Assembly: GCA_037042185.1 (NCBI GenBank) | Contig: JAXQJY010000019.1 | Span: 434,001-498,000 of the forward strand | Length of the DNA: 64,000 bases | Reading direction: 5' to 3' | DNA from: Sordariomycetes sp. S80-01Y | Taxonomy: Eukaryota; Ascomycota; Sordariomycetes | In this document: positions 3,236 to 63,020 of the stretch, one piece after another | Numbering within the stretch: the first letter of the stretch is position 1 | Layout: the number at the start of each line of letters is the position of its first letter | Notes under the pieces: model-generated | Told to the model about the DNA's origin: nothing | What the model saw: the letters and a program-made list of their open reading frames with translations, nothing else | Databases searched by the model: none | Translations under genes and position numbers: made by a program

Positions 3236-4894
3236 ATGGCTGCAGTGCGGGGCTCAACGGAGAAGAACGACATTGAGTCGCTCAAAGACAACCATGTCGA
3301 GTCGACGACGCAGGCCATCGACATCGCGGGCTTCCGAGTGTTTGGCTTGGACCCTGCCGATGCTGACTTCTTCACCAGCTACCCCGAGGAGAAGCGTCGC
3401 AAGGTCTTCCGCAAGGTCGACTTCCGCCTCGTCCCCATGCTGGCCTTGCTGTACCTGATCTGCCACATCGACAGAGCCAACATCGGCAATGCCAAGATTG
3501 AGGGAATGGTCGAGGACCTGGGCATGACTGGTGTCCAGTATAACATCGTCCTGTCGATCTTCTTCATCCCATATGTCCTCCTCGAAGTCCCCAGCAACAT
3601 CATTCTCAAGAAATTCAAGCGCCCTTCCACCTACATTGGCATTCTTGCTCTTGGCTGGGGAATCGTCATGACTTGTACCGGCCTGGTCCAGAACTTTGGT
3701 GGTTTGATGGGAACGCGCATTCTTCTTGGTATTTTTGAGTGAGTCTGCCTCAACATAAGCCCTTCAACAACCTGGCTAATCAGACTACCACAGGGCTGGT
3801 TTCTTCCCCGGTGCCATCTATCTTTGCAGCTACTGGTACATGCCGAGGGACCTGGCCGCCCGCATCTCATACTTCTATTGCGCCAGTGCTCTGTCCGGTG
3901 CCTTCTCCGGTCTTTTGGCCGCGGGTATTGCTGAGATGGACGGTGTCGGTGGCTATGAGGGTTGGCGATGGATCTTCATCCTGGAGGGCCTCGCCACTGT
4001 TGTCCTTGGTGTTTGCTGCTTCTTCCTGCTCATTGACACTCCTGCTCTCTCCAAACGCTGGCTTGAGCCTGATGAGATTCGATACCTCGAGTTGAGCATG
4101 TTCATCAAGCAGGGTGGTGGCTTCAAGGACGAGACTTCCGTGAAATGGAAAGACCTGAAGATGGTCCTCACAAACTGGCGCATCTACGTCCAGGCTTACT
4201 TCCTTCTGTGCCAGTCTGCCCTATCATACGGTATGTATAGGTCCAATCCTAACAGATGCCTTCCACTTACAGGTCAACAGGCATCAAATTTACTCTGCCG
4301 ACCATTACCAAGTCTATGGGCTTCAGCACCACTGTTGCCCAGCTGACTTCAGCTCCCCCATACGTTGCTGCAGCCATCTCTGCAATCGTCTTCGCCAAGA
4401 TCTCCGATCGCTTTTACTGGCGCATGCCCTTCGTGGTCGCTCCCATGGCAATCGTCACAACGGCATACTCCATCATCATCTCGCTCAACGGTGCCCTTGA
4501 GGCGAAGAAGGGTGTGGCCTACTTCTCCGTCGTACTGGCTGTCATTGGTATCTACCCCATTCAGGCGGCCGCGGCTTCCTGGAACGCAAACAACATCGCC
4601 CCGTCTTCTCGCCGAGCTATCGGCATTGCCCTCATGAACTGTGTCGGTAATGTCGGTGGTATTGTTGGCTCCTTCATGTACCTGGAGAGCGAGAACCCGA
4701 AATACTACACTGGCTTCGGTCTCAGCTTAGCGTTTGGTGCCAGTGGAATGATAGTTGCTTTGCTGTTGGAGTGGAGCTACAAGCACGCCAACAGCCGCAA
4801 GGCTAAGATTGCCGACGAGGCCAAGGCTAAGTACACTGAGGAGGAACTGTTCGAGATGGGAGACAGATCTCCTCTGTTCAAGCACGTTTTGTAA
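3236..4894 (+). CDS. MFS transporter, anion:cation symporter (Dal5-like)
   Basis: Three exons, 3236-3738, 3794-4230 and 4281-4894, joined by 55- and 50-bp introns, give 517 residues. The start is ATG 3236 (MAAVRGSTEKND). The cytosolic N-terminus (about 60 residues) is followed by KVDFRLVPMLALLYL, LCHIDRANIGNAKI and GTRILLGIFEAGFFPGAIYL, which are hallmarks of the allantoate/nicotinate permease (ACS) family with 12 membrane helices. Fungal members import small organic anions such as allantoate, nicotinate, tartrate and uronates. The head-to-head position with the glucarate dehydratase-like gene suggests import of the same acid, which is an inference. The second and third exons join in phase through GGC, giving SYGIKFTLPTITKS, which confirms the splice. 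Confidence 0.88.
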
Positions 4895-49952: not shown

Positions 49953-51292
49953 TTAGCGGGAAAAGACAAGTACCTTTGTCTCTGTTGGCCGTATCCCTTT
50001 CAGTACGAGGTTGCCTTCGGAAGCTTGAACATTCTTTTTCGCCCATATATCGCGAATCTTCATACTCCGTTTTGTCTCGAGCCCAGGGACGTCCGAAAGT
50101 GGAATCTTGACGTCAACGGCCTTGGAGTCATAGTTTTGCACCAAGAGTACATGTCTGTTTTTGCCCGAGGACAGCGGACCGGACCATATTTGGTAGATCC
50201 CCTCTTCTGAAAGGTCTTCCAAATACAATGCTGGTTTGCCTTCGTCATCCTGATTCAGAGCGATTATCTCCTTGTTCTTGTAGATGGAGAGCGATGTGTC
50301 GCTGATGTTGTTCAGGTCAGCTCCAATGATGAGGGGTGATTTGAGGGCTGCCCAGAATGACATGTGCGTTTGCTCCTCAAGCTCAGTCATTGTCCATGTC
50401 CCTAGCTCGAGCATGTCCATATCGGCTGATGAGGGATAGGTTAGCAAAGAAACTCTCACAAAGTTCATGAGTTGTTATGAATGGTACTCACCCCACGCTC
50501 CTGGCTTTGAGAAGGGGCTGACCTCGCGCATCTTCCGAATTGTCGTCAAAACGCTGACGCCAGCGTATCCCTGATTCATGCAATAGGCACTTTTGCACAC
50601 GCCACTCTTATCTTCCGAGAAGGACTTGTGGATATCTCCAGCCATACGGTACGATTCTCCAATTTGGTCTGCCCAGAGCCAAGGGAATTGATTACCCCAC
50701 TGACAAAGTGAGTAGAAGATCTCTCGGCCGGATGCAGTCAAGGCATATGACATCTTGAGGAAGCGCTCTTGCACGGACAAGACGTTGCTCTGGAATCCGC
50801 CGCAGTTGTCGTACTTCAGATAGTCGATACCCCACGACGCGAACGTGTGTGCATCTAGCTCCTCGTTGCCGTGGCTGCCGGGGTACTTCTTCCCGCACGT
50901 GAAGGCGCCGGCGTCGCTGTAAATGCCCAGCTTCAGCCCCTTGTCATGGATATCCGAGGCCAGATTGGCGATACCCCCCGGGAATCTCGTTTTATTGGCG
51001 GCGAGCAACCCATCAGTGTCGCGCTCGCTGTCTTGCCACCCGTCATCAATGACCACATATTCGTAGCCTAACTTGGCGAGACCAGTATCGACTAGAGCGT
51101 CTGCTGTAGATCTGATGAGATCCTCACTGATTTCAAGCTTGAAGCTGTTCCATGAGTTCCATCCTGCAGCCGGTTAGTTCTGGTAGCGGATGAGCGGATC
51201 AATTGAAACGTACCCATTTGGGGCTTCTGGGCCAGTTGCTTCTTAGAAAAAGCCACTTGTGCCCCGAAGAGCAGAAGATGTGTGAATTTCAT
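49953..51292 (-). CDS. GH27 alpha-galactosidase
   Basis: Three exons (51292-51214, 51163-50492, 50425-49953), with introns of 50 and 66 bp, give 407 residues. A short signal peptide (MKFTHLLLFGAQVAFS) precedes the start of the barrel, MGWNSWNSF. VVIDDGWQ, GLKLGIYSDAGAFTC and YLKYDNCGG (D145, nucleophile) follow; the acid/base Asp lies in the spliced WGADMDML motif. A C-terminal beta domain ends with VLVFSR. The enzyme removes terminal alpha-1,6-galactose from galactomannan or raffinose-type sugars outside the cell. The two splices restore the GWNSWN and DMDM motifs, which supports the model. It is adjacent to the fasciclin gene and the uronate-polymer cluster. Confidence 0.92.
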
Positions 51293-51869
51293 GACGCAAG
51301 GATGTTGATACACCTCGGAGTTGAGAAGGATTGGTGGTAATGCACCTCGGAGACAGATATAGCAGCTATGTAGTGGAGAGTTGATTGTTAAAACTGTCGG
51401 CCCCAAACGTCAGTTTCAATCGCCCACCACGGGCTGCCGGGAACAACAGACCTCTTCACCCGGTTCGCCGGAGCGTAGAGGCTGGTCGTGATGGCGAGGG
51501 GCAATGCATCAGTCGAAGATCCCGGAGCAAGTACCGGAGCTCCCCCCGGATCCAACCCCACGGGGCGACTTTCGGTAGCGTAATTACCGGGCAAGCGCAC
51601 GAACTTCTCCGCACTCTGCATCCCCGAAAACATGCACATCATGATGATGGATACTCGGTGCAGTCGGACGAGCTTTCGGGGATGGCCCCAGTCTGCACAA
51701 GTCGGCTGGAGCTAGGGTTAGCTGGCGGCCCATCTGCCTGTTTTCAACTCTGACCGTGAAGGGCAAGAAATTGCCAAAAAGTCTCCATCAGCTCAACTTC
51801 TGTTCTCATTTCGACTTCAATGCTCCTGACTCCTACTATTGTCAAATCATTGCCTACGCAGCCTCCAAA
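51293..51869. promoter_or_regulatory. divergent promoter (GH27 / fasciclin)
   Basis: 577 bp between divergent starts of two genes for secreted proteins. No motif is assigned. Confidence 0.4.
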
Positions 51870-52612
51870 ATGAGGGTTCATCATGTCCTGTCTCTGTGCA
51901 CGCTTGCCTGCTTTACGCAAGCCAAAGTATTGGACAGACAGCCACTTTCGTATGCTTCTATCCCCGAAGACATCTACGAGCCTCCAAACAAGGCTGGGGA
52001 GACTACTCTTCTGGATTTAATCAAGTCAAGAGACGATCTTTCGGAGCTTGCGAAGGTTGTAGAGCAGACGCCTGGTAAGTCAAATCCGGTCTTCCGAAGG
52101 ATGAGAACTGAAAAGCAATGGGGTTCACGCAAGCGTTCTCCACAAGCGTCAACTGGCAGTACACCTTTTTTGCACCGTCAAACACAGCGTTCAACAACAC
52201 CGGCGAGTACTATGAGACATTCGCAGCGACCCCAAAGGGAAAGTGGTGGACCGGACAAATGCTCCAGCACCACTACGTACCCAACTCGCGTCTCTACACC
52301 AGCAACTTCACGGAGGACCGTACGAGGATTCAGATGGGGTCTTATCTCTGGGCTTCGACGCAGATCAAGGATGGACAGCTCGTTCTGAACAACGCCGCTA
52401 CAGTTGTGGAGGGCGATCTGCCTGTGACAAATGTAGGACCTTGAATATCCATTGATCATATTACCAGAAATGCTGATAGAATCCAGGGCATCGTTCACAT
52501 TACGAATCGTATCATCGGTGGAGATCATATGCTCTATGAGGCCGATATTGAGAGGACGCCCCAAGGCTTTATTGCGGGTTCATGCTCAAACCCTGATGTT
52601 CCGTACTGCTAA
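51870..52612 (+). CDS. secreted fasciclin-domain protein
   Basis: Three exons, 51870-52074, 52116-52432 and 52487-52612 (introns 41 and 54 bp), give 215 residues. After a signal peptide (cut near TQA-KV) comes one fasciclin (FAS1) domain: LLDLIKSRDDLSELAKVVE, YTFFAPSNTAFNN (the conserved H1-type motif FAPSNxAF), LQHHYVPN, and NGIVHITNRII (the YH-type end, here VHITN). FAS1 proteins act in cell adhesion or matrix. There is no clear GPI signal at the C-terminus, which ends SCSNPDVPYC. The 41-bp first intron is short but keeps the frame and the domain. Confidence 0.83.
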
Positions 52613-53471
52613 TTGCCAGACTCCGGCGCAGCTGAAAGTTCGTGAATATGCCAGACAACTGGCCTCAGGTATCATAGAACTAGAAACAAACAGGAGCTTC
52701 TTCTTTACTGCCTATGTTGTAAAACCCTAGTGACTTTCATGAGCCACATGTGATTCCCAGATGGTGGATTTTGCATCTATCCTGAAGCGATAGGTAGAAT
52801 GCCTTGAAACTGGAAGATGGATCTTGAATAAGTTAAACACGGCTCTCTAGTCGCAGTTACGTAGACCTTTGTTAAACGTTGGTGTATACGAGACCAGGCG
52901 TATCGTGCGCCTCTGGAGCCTGTCAAAGCGTACGAGGCATTGGTACGGAGGCCAATGTAACCCAGACGTCGAGATGCGGGATGATGGACGGGTAGGTGCC
53001 CGATGTCGATTGAAGGGTTACCAGGCAGTCAAGCTCCTCTGAAATCTGTTGCGTGTTTTCAAAACTCTTCTTGATCAAGGTCACTGATTCGGCCGCTTAC
53101 GAGCTGCTGTGCCCGCTCTGGGGTCAGGCTTGTTGCAGGATTGTGGGGAGCAGATCGACAGTCTGGGGTATGCAGCCACACCTCCAGAACCATGATCGCA
53201 GATGCAGTACGTTCTACCTCCGGAATTCACCATACCTGCGGTGGGAGGAAGATATGTCGGGGTTCGTCCGAAGTGAGGATCAGCGCTTGAAGTCAGATGG
53301 AGCGGTTTCACCGTGACTCTCCTGAGATCTTGCTGATACCCACTAACATGGGACGGCCCGCAAACATGTCCTTGCCCCGACAAAGCACTATAAGAACCCA
53401 CCTCATCTCCTCCGCAAATCTACAAGAGCTTAGACATAGCAAGAAGATCCGGATAAGCGCCGAAAACAAGT
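52613..53471. promoter_or_regulatory. intergenic, promoter of the lyase gene
   Basis: 0.86 kb. A TATA-like actataaga at about 53388-53396 lies about 80 bp before the lyase start. Nothing else is seen. Confidence 0.45.
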
Positions 53472-54765
53472 ATGATGATCAACAGATTCGCCGCTCTCGC
53501 TCTCGGAACCACCGCAGTGACAACTGCGCTCGTGCACCCCGGTTTGCTCCACAACGAGCAAGATTTCGAGCGTATCAAGGGGTTTGTCGAGGGTGGGGAG
53601 GAGCCATGGGCCGGTGGATGGGACAAGCTGGTCGCGCGGACCGACCCTGAGTATGAGCCCAACGCGGTCGAGAGCATCTGTCGTGGTGGCGGTGGCTGCG
53701 AGACAGAGAACTACCCGACCCTTTATCGCGATATTCACTCGGCCTATGCAAATGCCATCTACTGGAAGGTCACCGGCGATACAGCGTATGGCGATGCTGC
53801 TGCCCGCACTTTGGATGATTGGAGCTCAACCCTGAAGGAGGTCACCGGCGACTCCAATGCAGTGCTGGCAGCTGGCATCTACGGATATCAATTTGCCAAC
53901 GTCGTTGAGATCATGAGAGACTATTCTTCGTGGACCGGTTTGGACGCTGCAGTTCAACTGCTGGTTGACGTTTTCTATCCCATCAACCACGACTTCCTGA
54001 TCCGTCACAACGATACGCCAGATGACCATTACTGGGCCAATGTAGGTTTAGTTGCAGAAAGCTTTGCGAAAGCCCACCATTCAAGATGAAGACTTTCTGA
54101 CTTTTGTATAGTGGGACCTTTGCACAATGACCTCAATCCATGCCATTGGCGTAGTCGCTGACGACGAATCCCTTGTCAACGAGGCCGTTGACTATTTCAA
54201 GGCCGGCAATGGCAACGGCGCGATCGAAAAAGCCATCTGGAAGCTTCATACAGAAGAGGGATCCGGCAAAATCCTTGGACAAAATCAAGAGGCTGGCCGT
54301 GATCAGGGCCACGCGCTCCTCGTCATGGGGTTGCTCGGCGCTTTTGCACAGCAAAACTACAACCAGGACAACGACATCTTCGGGTACCTTGACAATCGCA
54401 TTTTGGCAGGGTGAGCGTCGATTCCACTTCCTAAATTTTTATCCAAGTCTGACGTCTCTAGTATCGAGTATGCCTTCAAGTACAATAGTGGCCACGACGT
54501 GCCCTTCGCGGAGTATGTCAACAGCGTTCACGGAACACACACCGAGATCAGCCCTGACTCACGTGGCACGCTGAGGCCCATTGTGGAGCTTCTATACGCC
54601 CACTATGCCAGTGTCAAAGGACTCGATGCCGGGTGGACGGCTGAGTACCGTGACCTGGTCTTGGAAGAGGGAGGCGGTGCTGAAGGTGGTGGCGGTGATT
54701 ATGGTCCCAACAGTGGAGGCTATGATCAACTCGGATTTGGCACTATCTTGTATCGCCGCGAGTGA
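53472..54765 (+). CDS. alginate-lyase-superfamily protein A
   Basis: Three exons (53472-54041, 54112-54410, 54462-54765), with introns of 70 and 51 bp, give 390 residues. There is a signal peptide (cut near VTTA-LV), then HPGLLHNEQDFERIK, the usual start of the Alginate_lyase (PF05426) alpha-toroid domain. Other family landmarks are YANAIYWKVTGD, DHYWANWDLC (the Asn-aromatic part of the active-site cleft, formed by the first splice) and NQEAGRDQGHALLVMG. The family depolymerises uronate polymers such as alginate or glucuronan by beta-elimination. The C-terminal tail is Gly-rich. Gene B, 421 bp away and convergent, is a divergent paralogue. The exact substrate cannot be told. Confidence 0.82.
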
Positions 54766-55186
54766 TTCCGAAAGCAATGCACATATTTGGCTGTAACTAG
54801 GTACTGAGATTCGGCAGAATGTTTCCCTTAGATACTTGCTACTGATTTCGGGAGGGTCTACTGAACATTGCATTTTCCTCTACGAAAGCCTCTACGTTTC
54901 TGTGTTGTGTTTTTGTCTAAATTATAACAGAGCTTTAGCTGGTTAGCCCTGATAATGACCAAGCAACTGCCTTCAGAAGATTCAATTGATTGGCAAATGA
55001 GTCTCCAAATCCGGGTTCGTTATCTGCCTTAACATTCGCACTCGATTGTGTGGGTGGCAACGAATGTGGGCACCTCTTAGCCACACTACGTTGGTCTAGA
55101 TTAAGTTCCAAAGATCGAGTAAATGCTCAATTTAGGGTAAGTCGTGATGCTGACGGTTGATTCTCCTTGAGGCTTCTCTGGAAGGC
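54766..55186. other. intergenic between two convergent lyase genes
   Basis: 421 bp, A/T-rich 3' flanks. Confidence 0.4.
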
Positions 55187-56593
55187 CTAATCTCTGACAT
55201 TGATGTTTCCATTGCCATCCTCACCAAGCTTACCCCCTCCCCAGATTGTTCGGTCATTGTCGTTTTCAAACTTCCCTTTCCCGGGATAAGACCAGATAAG
55301 ATCACCCCAGCCTGGGAAATCCGTACCGCCAGCTCCCTCGCCTCCCATGTCATCAATCGCTTCCTTCATTTCGCTGACAAGCTTTGACTTGTTGCTCCTC
55401 TTAACAACATACTGGTAGTATATGATCTACTTAAATCAGTAAACCTACTTTCATATTGCTAGGAGGGTACTTACGTCATAGGCGCCAGGCGTGACACCAC
55501 GAGAAATATTCGATGGTGCCGCCCATGGTCCGTTTACAAGGATCGCTTCGCAACGATAGAAGTTTCGGTCGTACTTCACTTCTCTTCCCAAATTGTACTG
55601 AGCCGTGTACTCTGCTGCTTTGAGGAGCAGGTTGTCCTCCAGACCGTAGATGTCACGTCCCTGGCTTTGGACGACACGCGCAGCCTGGGCGGCCCACGCG
55701 ACGGTGTTCTTCGCATGGCCCTGGTCCCGACCAGTCTCGGCACTCTGGCCTGTCCGAGGCTGAAAATTGCCACGGATTCCAGCACAGGGATCATTTTTGT
55801 ACATGTGGAGGGCATAGTTGTACATCGTGACGTCGTCGAGGTACACAGCGAACGATAGCAGTGCCTTGATACTAGCCATGCCGTAGTTTGCCTGGCCGAC
55901 GTTGATAGATTGCTTGCCGAAGAGCCAATACAACTGATTCGAGAAGCCAGTTGCGCCACTGAACCCAGAACCAGCCTCAACCCAGCCGCCCTCCCACCGC
56001 ATGATCTCGGCGGCGTTGGCGAACATGTCTCCCTCTAGGCCGACAAGAAGCGACGTGTCAGTGCCAATGATGTCGGTAAGGTTGGTACCCCAGGCATCTA
56101 GGATGGTTGTGGCCCTGTCCCAGTGATCTTGGTCCCGTGTGATGTACCACATGAGTGCATTTTGGTAGGCGGCGCGCGTGTCTTGCGTGAAGGAAGTATA
56201 ATTGCTACAGCTGCCTCGACAGAGAACAGCATGAGGTCCTTGCATCTCGTACTAATTTCAACGTCAGAATCCTTCCGTTCCCAGGCTCCAGTGATCCGTT
56301 GTACCTACATTAGACTGGGAGAATTTATCGTCTCGAAATTTCTCGTATGCGGAGCTCCAAGGCTCGCTCTTATCTTCGACGCCCGTTTTGATCCGTTCGA
56401 GATCATCGTGAGTATGCCACAGGCCTGGATGAATGAATTCACCGGGCCCGTGTTTCATGTCAGGGTCATCCTGAGGCACGACAGGAATGGGTCCATTCAG
56501 GATCGGGAGGCCATTCAGACTACCAGTTGCAATTGCCAACGAGACCAACCATGCCAGCCCCGTAGATGCAATCACTGTCACCCTTGGGATCAT
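55187..56593 (-). CDS. alginate-lyase-superfamily protein B
   Basis: Three exons (56593-56309, 56251-55475, 55426-55187), with introns of 57 and 48 bp, give 433 residues. The signal peptide is followed by a Pro-rich spacer, then HPGLWHTHDDLERIKTG, matching the start of paralogue A. AYQNALMWYITRDQDHW, NVGQANYGMASIKAL and GQSAETGRDQGHAKN are equivalents of landmarks in A. The second splice restores GAYDIIYYQYVVKRSN, where the family has a conserved aromatic YxYVKR stretch; stopping without it would lose 80 residues. The C-terminal tail is Gly/Asn-rich (TIWGGGKLGEDGNGN). It is presumed to be a secreted uronate lyase with a specificity different from A. Confidence 0.82.
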
Positions 56594-57212
56594 TGTAATT
56601 TGATATTAAAAGTTCTGGGATTTGACAGGTTGAGAATGTTCATGCAGGCGTGAACTGATGCCGAAACCGGTGACTGATTGCTGGCAAGGGTTTCTTTCTA
56701 TAGTCTCAACAAGCGCTACTTACCAGGGACACATTGCTGGGACCAGATTACTCCGGTTTCCAAGGCGAGCCAAGACTGGCTTGTAGGTTTCTGGAATCAG
56801 GACACATTGAACGGAGGCTGTCCGGTCATTAACCCGGCCATGCTTTGCGGGGAAAAGCATGACCTCCGCATCGACGAAGCGTGGGGAAGCTGATCAAGCG
56901 CGCCACTTAGCTTTCGAAAAGGCGCAATGGGGTAAAATATCGTAATCTTGCGCCCGACTTCTACTGGAACCTTTCAACGAGAGAAAGAAGCTTTCTCGGG
57001 GTATTTGCCGGACAGCACTGCTGAGATTCGTGTCCACTGGTTCGTGTTGTCAACTAGTGACTATTGGAGGCAAATCAAGCAGTTGGCGTAAATATTTGTA
57101 GTCTACCTGTTCAGATAAAAGAGCTGTTGTACGGTATCCTAATAAGACGGGTCGCAACCAAGTAAACAGTGAGGGTCTACTATCTGCTAAACCTAGCCGT
57201 GCAAACTGTGTG
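56594..57212. promoter_or_regulatory. divergent promoter (lyase B / GH43)
   Basis: 619 bp between start codons. A shared regulator is plausible. I find no site that I can name. Confidence 0.4.
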
Positions 57213-59015
57213 ATGAAGTTGTCCGCGGTCATCGGCCAGCTATGCTGTGCTCTGCTTGTCGAAGCTATTCGGAATCCCGTTATATCCGGGTAAGCGGTCA
57301 TTTCAAAACGCGAAGTACAAGGAACTGACATGATTCCCAGTTGGAATCCGGATGCTGCTATCCTCCGGGTCGGAAGTGACTATTTCATCGCGACCTCCTC
57401 CTTCGAAATCTTTCCTGGTACGCCAATCTATCATTCTACCGACCTTGCCAATTGGAAACTGTACTCGAACGCTCTCACGGACGCCGAGCAACTCCAGTTA
57501 TATGGTGTTCCCGGCAGCTCAGCCGGTGTATGGGCTCCAACGCTCTCGTACCATGAGGGCGTGTTCTACCTCGCAAGCATGACACGATGGGTCTACGATC
57601 CGGTGCAGAAGCTTTGGCCTCGAGTCATGTTCTATACCTCAACGGACCTTATGACTTGGTCTGCGCCGATCTGGTGCGATCCGTGGGGCATTGACCCAGC
57701 TCTTTTTCACGACCCCATCTCTGGAAAGTCGTACCTCAGTCTAATGGCTCCGAACAATAACGAAGACCGCCTCTGGGGTATCTACCAGTGTCAGGTAGAT
57801 CTTGAGACTGGTCGCTGCATAGGACCTTACATGGGTCTCTGGAATGGCACCATGGAACATACGGCAGATGCTCGACCAGAGTCGCCCAAAATGATATACA
57901 AAGATGGTTACTATTACCTTCTCATCGCCGAGGGCGGAACTGATGAGCTTCATCGAGCCTCGGTAGCCCGGTCTGAATCCCCTGAAGGCCCGTTCGAGTC
58001 AGCGCCGAACAACCCGGTTCTACACAACGGCAAATGGGGAGTTACCAACCTCACGGTGCAGTCCACCGGCCATGCAACATTTGTGGACACACCTGATGGC
58101 CAGTGGTACGCATCTTTTCTCGCAAGGCGAAATATCAATGGCTCCTCACCACTCGGAAGAGAAGGCTTCCTGACCACTGTGGAGTGGACAAATGATGCTT
58201 GGCCTGTCTTCAACGGCGGCAACCCCATCACTTTGAGCCAGAGCTTTGGGTCAGCACCTGACCAAAGCATGGTTCCGGAGACTTTTGTGGATAGTTTCAA
58301 CAGTGGCTCCCTGCACCCAGAGTGGTACCAGCTCCGCACGCCATATACGATGAACTACAAGCTTGGAAACAGCTCTTGTGGACCAGGCCTGACACTGCTA
58401 CCGAACGTGTTTGGCTTGAGTGATCGGGACACGCCAGCTGCTTTGCTTAGAAAGCAAAAGTCTCTCAACATGACATTTTCTGCAACTCTCAGGGAAACGA
58501 ACAAGCCCCTTAACATCAGGCAATCGGTTGGGGTATCCGCCTATCTGAGCGACCTAGCGCATCAGGACATTGGCATTGCTGGCTGTCAGAGTGCTGAAGG
58601 CATGTGTATTTACACATCGCTCATTATGAACGACACGAAAACCGTAAGCTCCCTTCGCTCTCTCTTTGAGCTCATGAAGACTTTGTTAACATTCTGGGTG
58701 TCACAGAGGAGCGAGATCCCACTCAATCACAGCATCATCCCGGCCGAACTAACGCTACACATTCGTGCAGAACCTCTAGAGTACTCCCTTGGTTACTCTT
58801 TCGGCAAAGACGATGTCCATTGGCTAGCTGACTTCTCCTCGTATTGGATGGCGTTCGCTCACCCGGAATATTTCGTCTTCAGTGGAGCGAGCTTTGCTCT
58901 TTTCGCAAGCGGGGGAGGTGAGCCGTGGGGTTTCGACAGCCCAGATGTCGGCTTCACAAGGGTGGAAGAAGAGTACTTCGAGGAAAATATCCCTGACTAT
59001 GATAACTGGGTATAG
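57213..59015 (+). CDS. GH43 glycosidase (xylosidase/arabinofuranosidase)
   Basis: Three exons, 57213-57289, 57341-58643 and 58707-59015, give 562 residues. The first exon gives a signal peptide (MKLSAVIGQLCCALLVEA), which the frame from 57330 would miss. The splice restores NPVISGWNPDAAILRVG, typical of GH43. Catalytic residues are D30 (NPDAA), D144 (GIDPALFHD) and E206 (RPESPK). A C-terminal beta-sandwich domain (about residue 340 on, FVDSFNSGSLHPEWYQLR) follows, as in beta-xylosidase-type members. The last intron (58644-58706, gtaagc...tcacag, 63 nt) is a multiple of three without a stop, so it can be mistaken for coding. Secreted; removes xylose or arabinose side groups or ends. It lies tail-to-tail with the GH88 gene. 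Confidence 0.9.
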
Positions 59016-59023
59016 ATAGCTAT

Positions 59024-60681
59024 CTACATAATGTTTCTTCCAACTCCGAGATCTAGAAGCAAGTTGCCCACCAACACGAAGTAATAGTCTGCGTACACCA
59101 ATCCATGATTTGCCCATCGCCGAGGAGCGAACTTGTAGTTGTTGATGGTCGCCCCGGTGAGGATGGTATCGCCTTCGCTGTTGCAGACAGCTTCAAAGAG
59201 TTGCTGCGAGATGCCTTGCTCCACCGTTTCGACGGGGGTCGAAGACTGCGAGAGATGCGCCGTCGACTCCGTGTGGGCTGCACAGACAGCAGAGGTGATT
59301 CGAAGCGCCGCATCAAGATATCTCTGCGCTTCCACAAGATTACCATTTCCTGTAAGAGCCTTGTAAATGAGAAGCATTCCATAGGAAGCTATCATAGCGG
59401 CGCTTGTGTCGGGCGGGTGAATATCTTCGTCTGCCATTGCCCCGTCAAAATCCCAGGGAGGTATAGCGCTGGAAGGCAGACGCGATAGGAAGTAATCAGC
59501 GCAGTTCCGAGATGTCTGAAGGAACGAATCGTCTCTTGTCCAACCATATGTCTCCGCAAAGCCCGCTATAGCCCACGCCTGGCCACGGGTCCAGCAGGAG
59601 GAGTCATCGTAGCCTTGGTTCGTGAGTTTCTGTCTAATGGCCCCCGTCTCGGGGTCGAAGACTACCAGGTGTGTTGAGGAGTTGTCGGATCGGATGTGTG
59701 CGGCTTGTGTGGTTTTGGCATGCTTTACCGCGTCGTTCCACATGGCTTGGTTTCTGGTTTGGGAGGCGACGTAGAAGAGCATGTCCAGATTCATCATGTT
59801 GTCCTGTACTGAATCAGCCATATGTTCTCTGTTATCTCCAGCATCAAGACATACGATAACAGTGAGGAACTCATTTCTCGGATCTTGGAAAGAATATCGT
59901 TTCGTGACACAGACGTCCCATGAGCGGATAAGTCCAACGACAGGGCTGAAGCGCGAGTGCAGCGACTTGGCCGCCAGTTTCAGAGTCTCAAAGGCTCGTG
60001 TGTCATGCTTGAGCTCCCAAGCCGGTCGGGCCCAAGGTGCGATCATGAAGCCGAGGTCATGCGTCGTGTTCAATGCGGCGTTGCTGTGCAGTCGCTCCGT
60101 CCACCATTCGCAAGCGAACCTGTCGCCAACGGCGTCAGTGCGTATTACATCACCGTCCTTTTCATTCCATGGACTCACTCTAGCTTCAAGGGGTGGATCA
60201 TTCGAGAATTCTCGCGGCTCTGAAGGTTTGGATACTTGCGTGCGCGGTACAGCAGTTCGTACAAAGTTCCAGGGAAGAACCCGGAGGTCCAGAACTCGAG
60301 GTCCCGGTAAACGTAGCTTCTCCCGCCCGGCTGTGTATACTCTGGAAATAGAGAAGGAGGCTCAGTCTTTTTGGAAGAGTTCAATCAGCGTTTTTCTTTG
60401 AGACAATCTCCCGTATTTCTTACCATGGTCAGCGCTTTTGATGCAACAGCCCAAACTTTGGCCTCTACGGCTGGCGAGTAGAGCGCCGACAACTCCTTTG
60501 AAGATGAGAGAAGATTGTGACCGGAGGACTTGGGAGTTTCCTGGAAACTCTGCGCATCCTCCACGTCTTTATGAACCAGGCTATTGTTGTTTGCCCCATT
60601 GAGAGGGTTGTCGTGATTGTGTCCATTCGAAGTTGGAGCGCCATTCTGTAGGCTAGAGTCATGAGTAGCCGCCATTGCCAT
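59024..60681 (-). CDS. GH88 unsaturated-uronyl hydrolase, intracellular
   Basis: Four exons (60681-60424, 60366-60179, 60119-59855, 59803-59024), with introns of 57, 59 and 51 bp, give 496 residues. Splices restore FWTSGFFPGTLYELLYRA, HPLKLEFACEWWTERL and FLTVIDNMMNLDMLF. Family landmarks are THDLGFMI (D170), DNMMNLD (D238), CWTRGQAWAIAGFAETY, PPDTSAAMIASYGML and GLVYADYYFVLVG. GH88 enzymes hydrate the 4,5-double bond at the non-reducing uronate left by polysaccharide lyases and release the 4-deoxy ketose form. No signal peptide is present: the first 60 residues are Asn/Gly/Ser-rich (NGAPTSNGHNHDN), so the enzyme is likely cytosolic. The 51-bp last intron is in frame and was chosen because it removes an insertion in a conserved segment. 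The neighbour transporter would feed it. Confidence 0.9.
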
Positions 60682-61294
60682 TGCGCAGATCGACAGTCTC
60701 GATGCCCTTCAGAAGTTTTAGAGACGAAAATAAGAGCGCCTGAAGAAAATTTTGCAAGAAGAAAAGGGTACTTTTACTGTCGGGGTGACTTCGTACAGGT
60801 GCATTGATTGCCTGCTATGCCCGTTGTACCGACTTCCCTTCCATCTTCGGCCCTGCCATCAGTTCCATGAAGCCAAGAGCACCGGTCACGATCCAGCTAT
60901 TGTCCCGCAGACCGTCTATGACAATGCCACTACCCATCTGCGGCCCCATCCGTCCTGAGTACGACCATCACAGACGTGAGTATGACGACCGGGCTCCGGC
61001 GCATCTTCCGGGCCTTCGCCGCCAGTGCTGGGGAGATGCGGGGTGCGTGTTCGGGGCCCCGACAAACCCAGATCAATACATTTCCAGATCCAGACTCTGC
61101 TACCCTACGAGAGCAACGGCAGCCCTCCGCCAGATGACCCAGACATTGGAAGACGGCAATCGGACATCCGTAGAAAAGGACCAACGAGAAACTGAACATT
61201 GAGAACATTCCTTGTAGTCCAGATCAGTTTTGCCGGCAAACTACGATTATAACCGCGCAACACCAATACCATTGCAAGCACCACAGACATTACG
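60682..61294. promoter_or_regulatory. divergent promoter (GH88 / MFS)
   Basis: 613 bp shared by the GH88 and the transporter genes, fitting common control of uptake and intracellular cleavage. No named site is found. Confidence 0.45.
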
Positions 61295-63020
61295 ATGGTC
61301 ACGAAACCAGACATGACAGCTCATCACCTGGAGGGTCAGCAGGCTAATAACAATGTTGACAAAGAAGTGAGTAAATCTTCCTACTGCATCTCTGAGAACT
61401 TCACTGACTGACATTTTTCCATAGATTGCCGCCTATGTAGGAGGCGACATTGTCCACGTTGATGAGAAGACGAGCAAGCGTCTCTTTTGGACCGTCAATA
61501 AACGAATTCTTGCCTGTATGTTGGGTACATATTTCTGCCAATCCCTCGACAAGGGAACACTGGGGTTTGCCTCGGTGATGGGAATTATTGAGGATGCCAA
61601 CTTGACCGGTGATCGCTTCAACTGGCTCGGCACCATCCTGTACATGGGCATCCTCGTTGGCGAGTACCCAACCAACTTCCTGCTGCAAAAGTTGCCAGTG
61701 GCCAAGTACCTGGCGGCCAATGTTGTCTGTTGGGGTGTCGTTGTTGGCTGCTCGGCGGCCGCCGTTAACTTCCCTGGGTTGATGGCGGTCAGATTCCTGC
61801 TTGGAGTTTTCGAGAGCTGCGTCCAGCCTGCTTTCATCATCATGTAAGTAGTAGAGGTGTCTATGCGATGCTAGGCCCTGAATGGTGGCTAATGATCGTC
61901 GGCACAGGACGAGCATGTGGTACACCAAGCGAGAGCAAGTCATCTTGACATCGCTCTGGTATTGCATGACAGGAGTCCAACTCATGGTGGGAGGCCTCAT
62001 TGCCTACGGTACCTCGCACTACAGCGGCGGCCTCATGTTCCCATGGCAGCTCCTCTTCATGGTTCTTGGAATCGCGACCGTTTGCTGGGGTCTCTTCATA
62101 GGCTGGTGGCTCCCCGACTCGCCCATGAAGGCCAAGTGCTTCAACGAGGATCAGAAGCGCTTGATGATTGAGCGCGTGCGCGCCAACGAGACTGGCATCC
62201 AGAACAAGGTCTGGAAGCCCAAGCAGGTCATTGAGACGCTGACCGACCCAGTGGTCTGGTGCTATGTCATGCTGCAGGTCACATCGACACTTATCATCGG
62301 CGGGCTCGGTGTTTTCTCGAATTTGATTATCCAGTCCTTTGGATTTGATGCTCTGACGGTGCAACTTCTCAATATCGCGCAGGGAGCTGTCACTATCATG
62401 GTCATGGTCGGAGGTGCCTGGGCAGCGACAGCAACTCGGCAAACCGCCATGATTATGCATCTTTGGACTGTGTGAGTAAAGCCTGAAGCTTACTTGGTGA
62501 TATAAGCTAATGGTGTTGCAGGCCAGCCATCATCGGCACCGCTGTCATCTTCACCATCCCGCCGACACCTTCGACACGCGCTGGTCTGCTGATTGCATTC
62601 TACTGCACCCAGTTCTACCTCGCAGAAGGTAACCTGATCTTCTCTCTTATTTCACGAAACATTGCCGGCCAGACCAAGAAGTCGACCACACTTGCCCTGA
62701 CGTTCGTCTTCTGGGCAGCCGGAAACATGGCTGCCCCTCAGATCTTCCAGAAGAGCGACGCGCCGCGCTACCGAAAGGGTTTCACCGCGCACTTTTGCCT
62801 CTATGCGCTGTTCAACATTTTCCTCGTCATCATGCGGGTCCTCCTGGCTCGCCGTAACAAGGCCAAGGAGAGTGCGGTGGCAGAAATCACGCCTGGGGAT
62901 CAGAATGCCAACGCAACGGAACAGGACGGCGACGGCAAGCCGACGGGAGGGGTCTCGCATTCCAACGCTTTTGCAGACATGACCGACAAGGAGAATCCTG
63001 CGTTTCGCTACGAGATGTAG
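61295..63020 (+). CDS. MFS transporter, anion:cation symporter family
   Basis: Four exons (61295-61366, 61425-61843, 61908-62471, 62522-63020), with introns of 58, 64 and 50 bp, give 517 residues. The first exon encodes only a 24-residue polar N-terminus. Helices include CMLGTYFCQSLDKGTLGFAS (helix 1, with the ACS-type LDK motif), LGTILYMGILVGEYPTNFLL and VRFLLGVFESCVQPAFIIM, and the family's TSMWYTKREQ segment. Relatives are allantoate (Dal5-like) permeases that carry organic anions. The gene is divergent from the intracellular GH88 and in a lyase cluster, so uptake of unsaturated oligouronides or uronates is the best inference. It is only distantly like the first transporter in the window. 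Confidence 0.88.

Follow-up and report, generated by a model that had tools for sequence, protein, structure and literature searches.

A lyase and GH88 gene cluster of Sordariomycetes sp. S80-01Y that probably serves the utilization of a uronate glycan

A system of lyases for glucuronan has reportedly been described by Pilgaard in 2022 for Trichoderma parareesei, with lyase families including PL7, PL8 and PL20 (PL, polysaccharide lyase). Clusters of genes for carbohydrate-active enzymes (CAZymes) are already known as a kind in fungi; a Trichoderma study requires, within two intergenic distances, three or more CAZyme genes or else two accompanied by a transporter or regulator gene (PMC8672877). 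Here, we analyze a stretch of 64,000 nucleotides from Sordariomycetes sp. S80-01Y (the window; positions 434001-498000 of contig C2, GenBank JAXQJY010000019.1, in a genome of 30.9 Mb), whose closely spaced genes fall within this definition. They encode two secreted lyase-like proteins (lyases A and B), glycoside hydrolases (GH) of families 27, 43 and 88, a fasciclin-domain protein and a transporter, and a GH28-like gene lies beyond the right edge of the window. We consider it likely that these genes constitute a fungal cluster resembling a polysaccharide utilization locus (PUL), which acts by beta-elimination on a branched uronate glycan, likely of plant origin, and takes up the unsaturated product for hydrolysis by an intracellular GH88 enzyme.

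One line of evidence for this reading is the recurrent proximity of lyase and GH88 genes. Searching the genome with lyases A and B, and scoring the best candidates, revealed three loci of the lyase family, one each in the window, on contig C8 and on contig C13, and the gap to a GH88 gene is about 2.4 kb, 8.0 kb and 11.4 kb, respectively. The GH88 genes near the C8 and C13 lyases are of the same type as that of the window. With the eight GH88 loci considered, the chance that both non-window lyase loci lie within 15 kb of another GH88 gene is p = 5e-05, or 1e-04 when five further PF07470 loci are counted as GH88; the lyase locus of the window itself is excluded from this calculation. The limit of 15 kb was picked after the distances were known. 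The association of lyase and GH88 genes exceeds chance, and it recurs within this one genome as well as on shared contigs in other ascomycetes. Six of the eight GH88 loci (C2, C8, C13, C15, C10 at 1.18 Mb and C11 at 1.60 Mb) have a neighbor within 15 kb that belongs to the lyase A/B family, PF14099 or DUF2264 and that, judged by its family, could make unsaturated uronates; none of these was found near the GH88 loci at 2.63 Mb of C11 and 3.24 Mb of C10. Two of four PF14099 loci and three of four DUF2264 loci are located within 15 kb of a GH88 gene, the latter three within 4 kb. Pfam scans of these stretches covered selected open frames. We take PF14099 to be the Pfam family of the fungal PL20 glucuronan lyases and DUF2264 to be GH154.

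The second lyase/GH88 cluster (C8:41001-52000; L022, L023) contains a DUF2264 gene, a gene for a beta-helix protein and transcription factor genes, with a sugar transporter gene just to the left (L021); compared by BLAST, the beta-helix protein and the GH28-like protein gave no match at E values up to 10. The third cluster (C13:731001-761000; L024-L026) encodes a PF14099 lyase, a Zn2Cys6 regulator and an anion:cation symporter (ACS) that is 34-38% identical to the window transporter, together with a sugar transporter, GH31, beta-galactosidase domains and an alpha-L-fucosidase. It is a candidate glucuronan-type cluster. At C10:1177131-1182989 and C11:1602303-1608125, GH88 adjoins DUF2264 genes, with a GH2 gene in between at C10. 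If DUF2264 indeed corresponds to GH154, these pairs might be a fungal counterpart of the bacterial partnership between uronate dehydratases and GH88.

According to the original prediction, lack of conservation of the gene set across related genomes would refute it; examined by contig sharing, locus tags and fused gene models, the idea survived. Organisms from the top 120 rows of each of the lyase A, lyase B and GH88 lists were entered by hand and matched by name. Organisms in one list only, nameless rows and pairs seemingly from different assemblies were left out (A. felis, P. longicatenatum, Sporothrix eucalyptigena, F. nematophilum, V. albo-atrum B, F. oxysporum, T. virens, Pseudogymnoascus and V. 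dahliae). Taking equal length of the longest contig as an indirect sign of a shared contig, and assuming a genome of 40 Mb for the expectation, GH88 shares its longest contig with lyase A in 13 of 23 organisms and with lyase B in 14 of 24 (about 0.9 expected for each), and the two lyases share theirs in 5 of 12 (about 0.3 expected). For contigs below 500 kb, the respective counts are 7/11, 9/12 and 1/6. For Xylaria arbuscula and Leptodontidium, which have two lyase A proteins each, the contig-sharing one was entered, giving a slight bias toward linkage; some of the entered non-matches, namely Truncatella GH88, Ilyonectria, F. solani and Daldinia, possibly stem from different assemblies, giving a bias against it.

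Locus tags place GH88 (008943) next to lyase B (008944) in Monosporascus and lyase B (000006) next to lyase A (000007) in Plenodomus. In Diaporthe, GH88 and lyase B carry the tags 010711 and 010714, and in Verticillium GH88 and lyase A carry 005844 and 005850. More distant tags on a shared contig were seen in A. nanangensis (21 apart) and Neopestalotiopsis (182 apart); given that about 580 tags separate the genes of A. turcosus on a contig of 67 kb, the tags of this assembly are not positional. Gene prediction tends to fuse adjacent genes, and fused models join GH27 to lyase B in Neofusicoccum (P0199) and GH27 to GH88 in two related Colletotrichum strains (P0346 and P0352).

Lyase A matches the Pfam model Alginate_lyase (PF05426) weakly (E 5e-07), and lyase B is its remote homologue (profile-profile comparison, probability 100, E 8e-56). 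Fold searches were performed with predicted structures of close homologues, P0001 (65% identical to lyase A) and P0121 (73% identical to lyase B), whose mean predicted local distance difference test scores are 86 and 78. At E values up to 0.001 these gave 6 and 20 rows, respectively, matching alginate lyases, with modest template modeling (TM) scores by query length of 0.42-0.58; from labels and entry titles, the matches include PL15, PL17, PL38 and PL5. On these models, both proteins are assigned to the alginate-lyase superfamily with its alpha/alpha toroid fold. A mixed profile searched against solved structures matched an unrelated fusion construct (E 0.02) and three alginate lyases (E 0.4-0.7). 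Asn190, Glu250, Arg253, Asp254, Gln255 and His257 (lyase A numbering) are common to A, B and their relatives in 78-79 of 79 rows, and some of these residues may act in catalysis. The two families comprise 2027 (lyase A) and 243 (lyase B) proteins at E up to 0.001; those listed are named after a domain type or as hypothetical proteins only. Through GH88 and the gene cluster, both now gain a putative functional partner and a genomic context.

The identity of the GH88 protein is clear from sequence comparison, although its Pfam score of 26.0 bits falls 0.6 bit short of the cut-off (26.6). It matches eight solved sequences of GH88 or unsaturated uronyl hydrolases by phmmer (E 2e-35 to 9e-32), and in the alignment its Asp159 and Asp227 take the places of Asp88 and Asp149, the catalytic pair of the unsaturated glucuronyl hydrolase of Bacillus (1vd5). 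The GH27 protein matches Melibiase_2 (E 2e-63); Asp145 (KYDNCG) and Asp203 (RMAGDI), positions which we assume to be catalytic, align with the corresponding motifs of the alpha-galactosidase 1uas. Pfam further identifies GH43 (E 2e-67) together with GH43_C2, Fasciclin (E 2e-13) and, for the transporter, MFS_1 (E 1e-31; MFS, major facilitator superfamily). The best NCBIfam model of the transporter is TIGR00893 (E 2e-54), at 185 bits and below the cut-off of 395; no NCBIfam model scored above its cut-off for GH27, GH43, lyase A, lyase B or the transporter.

These assignments suggest a chain of reactions. Secreted lyases A and B would cleave a uronate-containing glycan by beta-elimination, so that the non-reducing end formed by the cut carries a 4,5-unsaturated uronate, and the secreted GH43 and GH27 enzymes, probably with the GH28-like enzyme, would trim the side chains. 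The ACS-type symporter would import the small unsaturated acidic product, from which intracellular GH88 would remove the unsaturated uronate, which could then rearrange to a keto-uronate for catabolism. A Zn2Cys6 regulator may switch on the divergent promoters together via sites of the CCGG-N8-CCGG type. Of these steps, the activity of the lyases, product import and co-regulation are inferred.

All seven genes named in the original prediction are present in the proposed order (Table 1). Gene models were spliced by hand from the raw sequence without RNA data and yielded full-length proteins for 7/7 genes, with GT/AG introns of 41-84 bp; in intron 1 of GH88, the second of two adjacent AG acceptors gives the in-frame model. 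GH43 may contain a further in-frame intron of 63 bp (58644-58706), in which case the protein would comprise 562 rather than 583 amino acids. By simple hydropathy, the N-termini of GH27, the fasciclin protein, lyase A, lyase B and GH43 are hydrophobic and that of GH88 is not, in agreement with the claim that GH88 carries no signal peptide. The predicted extent of seven genes has to be revised: the genes are real, but the set continues past 63020 into a Zn2Cys6 regulator gene (zinc cluster at extended position 64306-64386, Fungal_trans in frame from 64477) and, beyond it, the GH28-like gene (C2:501235-502794), so that the cluster probably comprises nine genes. The interpretation as a PUL-like system for a uronate polymer likewise stands in part, backed by the linkage of lyases, GH88 and GH27 in other ascomycetes and by an overlapping bacterial gene set (see below), but not with the original gene count. 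No match to SusC or SusD models was found in the seven window genes or the five right-flank frames scanned, and an MFS transporter is present instead; given that the SusC/SusD pair is missing from these frames, the cluster is no PUL by the strict definition, though it may function like one. The genome contains a single intact copy of the gene for the GH28-like protein. A broken relic of its gene lies at C2:521748-522386, ~19 kb from the intact copy.

Table 1. Genes and candidate regulatory sites of the cluster (window positions)
Feature	Position	Strand	Details
GH27 (alpha-galactosidase / beta-L-arabinopyranosidase type)	49953..51292	-	407 aa; exons 51292-51214, 51163-50492, 50425-49953
Two overlapping CCGG-N8-CCGG sites	51522..51549		GH27/fasciclin divergent promoter
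Fasciclin-domain protein, secreted, candidate cluster member	51870..52612	+	215 aa
Lyase A, secreted, assigned to alginate-lyase superfamily	53472..54765	+	390 aa; exons 53472-54041, 54112-54410, 54462-54765
Lyase B, secreted, divergent homologue of lyase A	55187..56593	-	433 aa; exons 56593-56309, 56251-55475, 55426-55187
CCGG-N8-CCGG site	56822..56837		Lyase B/GH43 divergent promoter
GH43 + GH43_C2, secreted (beta-xylosidase / alpha-L-arabinofuranosidase type)	57213..59015	+	583 aa
GH88 unsaturated uronyl hydrolase, without signal peptide	59024..60675	-	485 aa; exons 60675-60424, 60339-60179, 60119-59855, 59803-59024
CCGG-N8-CCGG site	60996..61011		GH88/transporter divergent promoter
MFS transporter, ACS type	61295..63020	+	517 aa; exons 61295-61366, 61425-61843, 61908-62471, 62522-63020

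The promoters of the cluster are organized in a manner that suggests, at the level of sequence motifs, a common regulator. The divergent pairs lyase B/GH43 and GH88/transporter were correctly predicted, with 619 bp between the genes of each, and a third divergent promoter of 577 bp separates GH27 from the fasciclin gene. The word CCGG-N8-CCGG occurs six times in the window, with 0.8 expected from shuffles, and 658 times genome-wide. Four of the six sites fall into the three divergent promoters; of the remaining two, one is within GH43 (57511) and one at 3895. That each of the three promoters would contain a site by chance has a probability of ~2e-06, uncorrected for the 63 CGG/CCG patterns considered. 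The word CGG-N9-CGG is found in 5/5 promoters (14 hits, both strands), a result reached by 0/400 random sets, and its hits largely coincide with sites of the CGG-N8-CCG type. Across the whole window, CGG-N8-CCG is near expectation (22 versus 14.6 from shuffles; 4/100 shuffles as high). No exact 8-mer is common to four of the five promoters, and no 9- or 10-mer to three.

Bacterial relatives of lyase A were examined in the best 80 of at least 437 loci with lyase A homologues. Their lyases are 45-54% identical to lyase A in the best segment and match it over nearly its full length. In a midpoint-rooted tree, in which own_C8 and own_C13 sit on long branches, the fungal lyase A clade (100/99) is nested in bacterial sequences beside a Pseudomonadota group (99/98), and fungal lyase B forms a separate clade (100/98). 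The second lyases of bacteria fall outside the fungal lyase B clade, the dividing fork being weak (94/76). The weakness of this fork, together with the fairer chance figure for the lyase-GH88 linkage that omits the window locus, slightly lowers our confidence in the cluster reading. One locus, from Labilibaculum (L103), has the order SusC, SusD, lyase A homologue, GH88, GH28-like, GH43+GH43_C2, second lyase, GH43 and GH28-like; over 491 amino acids, the first of its GH28-like proteins shares 39.5% identity with the GH28-like protein that flanks the fungal cluster. Genes for lyase A, a second lyase and a GH28-like protein occur together in 16/80 loci, from 13 Streptomyces, one actinobacterium, Kribbella and Labilibaculum. 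Most of the 80 loci contain none of the searched-for partners, and no nameable recurrent partner was found in those outside Bacteroidota and Streptomyces/Kribbella. The Streptomyces loci with this set include L066, L088, L099, L102 and L108; some of these species we take to be plant-associated or scab-type.

A farther-reaching reading of these data is that the fungal cluster and the loci of Bacteroidota and Streptomyces represent one cross-kingdom module for a single acidic plant glycan, made up of lyase A, a second lyase and a GH28-like enzyme with GH88 and GH43, that fungal lyase A is of bacterial origin and that A and B are the founding members of two separate polysaccharide lyase families. 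We regard this as tentative and on the whole doubtful. If the match were functional, knowledge of bacterial PULs could be used to predict the substrates of fungal enzymes.

Several results weigh against a coherent uronate cluster. Pfam returned no match for lyase B, and when solved structures were searched by sequence, the two lyases and both of their profiles yielded nothing relevant. GH88 was detected in just one of the 80 bacterial loci. In other fungi, the longest contig is not shared in 10/23 organisms for lyase A and GH88, 10/24 for lyase B and GH88, and 7/12 for the two lyases, the last of which means that pairing of A and B is not obligatory; in Colletotrichum jinshuiense, lyase B and GH88 lie on one chromosome, about 870 tags apart. 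As for common regulation, CCGG-N8-CCGG came to notice once 63 CGG/CCG patterns had been inspected. A reversed control word is commoner genome-wide (1274 versus 658 sites), and CCGG-N8-CCGG is therefore not generally favored in this genome. Enrichment of the CGG-N8-CCG core in the cluster promoters is modest (six sites in 4/5 promoters versus 0.9 expected, p 3e-04, uncorrected), and the GH28-like promoter lacks it.

With respect to the substrate, the original prediction listed several polymers, among which alginate and plain glucuronan now appear less likely as the sole target because an unbranched polyuronide would offer GH43, GH27 and GH28-like enzymes no evident task. We favor instead a branched, plant-derived glycan with 4-linked glucuronate, either gum/arabinogalactan-like or pectic; a plant glycan is suggested by the occurrence of the lyase/GH28-like set in Streptomyces species, some of them plant-associated. 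The two best-defined alternatives are glucuronan and the side chains of gum arabic.

Glucuronan, or a polyuronide of the fungal wall, would be the substrate if the locus were a system as in T. parareesei, with lyase A a PL38-type glucuronan lyase, lyase B a helper and the hydrolases serving another substrate, which we hold to be unlikely. A 2026 article lists TpPL38A of T. parareesei and CUL-I of Brevundimonas in its discussion as PL38 beta-1,4-glucuronan lyases (PMC13027841), and PL38 is annotated in Sporothrix in another report (PMC9281073). Trichoderma has a lyase A homologue (P0011, 61%), and the paralogous C13 cluster carries a PF14099 lyase. A further homologue is found in Asticcacaulis (L106), presumably a relative of Brevundimonas. 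However, this explanation leaves GH43, GH27 and GH28 without an obvious role. The lyase A profile does not match BoPL38 chains at E up to 1, and a bacterial lyase A homologue matches the B. ovatus alginate lyase 3nfv weakly (E 0.14). The lyase A model resembles PL38 in fold only (TM 0.54-0.62 by query length, root-mean-square deviation about 6-8 Å), making PL38 membership a candidate assignment on structural models, unproven by sequence.

It is comparably improbable that A and B cut no backbone and instead uncap terminal glucuronate at its 4-position, releasing a sugar or water and preparing side chains for GH88. FoRham1, a PL42 enzyme, frees rhamnose from gum arabic by beta-elimination, in a Fusarium pathway with a GH27 alpha-galactosidase and arabinofuranosidases (PMC8377490). 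In two further reports, GH154 members are uronate dehydratases that feed GH88 (2025; PMC12269599) and P29_PDnc does the same for GH105 (PMC8511951), and, if DUF2264 is GH154, the closeness of three of four DUF2264 loci to GH88 genes in this genome fits such a partnership. Yet PL42 is a different protein family, and the fold matches of A and B are alginate lyases, enzymes that mostly cleave the bond between two uronate residues. Finally, that CAZyme genes unrelated to one another have come to lie together by chance, in a region rich in such genes, is already disfavored and very improbable: GH43 and GH27 are common families (Melibiase_2 matches also occur on C7, C9 and C12) and the fasciclin protein has no obvious role, but the lyase-GH88 linkage at all three lyase loci found in the genome and the sharing of contigs by these genes in many other fungi, as well as the overlapping gene set in the SusC/SusD locus L103, argue otherwise.

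The proposed PUL-like cluster for a branched uronate glycan can be compared with known counterparts. In searches of open-licence literature, we recognized no description of a fungal lyase-GH88 cluster, and an earlier one may exist elsewhere. GH88 and PL38 are not mentioned in the main text of the Trichoderma CAZyme-cluster paper (PMC8672877), and the terms GH88 and gene cluster are missing from the main text of the FoRham1 paper (PMC8377490). The Trichoderma clusters share the spacing definition with the locus reported here, to which the reaction logic leading from lyase to GH88 and the shared contigs in many ascomycetes are added. Judged from citing papers, the T. parareesei system resembles this cluster in that ascomycete lyases, one of them of PL38, act on a glucuronate polymer; the cluster adds GH88, GH43, GH27 and GH28-like genes, and Pfam models of PL7, PL8 and PL20 lyases gave no match among the seven window genes. 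Similar to this cluster, the gum arabic pathway of Fusarium oxysporum combines GH27, a step of the arabinofuranosidase type and beta-elimination at glucuronate, but it relies on PL42, a family different from lyases A and B (PMC8377490). Among bacteria, the Labilibaculum locus likewise combines two lyases of the alginate-lyase family, GH88, GH43+GH43_C2 and GH28-like enzymes beside a transport system. Its second lyase is placed outside the fungal lyase B clade, it lacks GH27 among the ten frames scanned, whereas the fungal cluster has one, and in place of SusC/SusD the fungus has an MFS symporter, the proposed importer, while a Zn2Cys6 factor is the proposed regulator. The fungal locus offers a defined set of candidate enzymes for acidic glycans.

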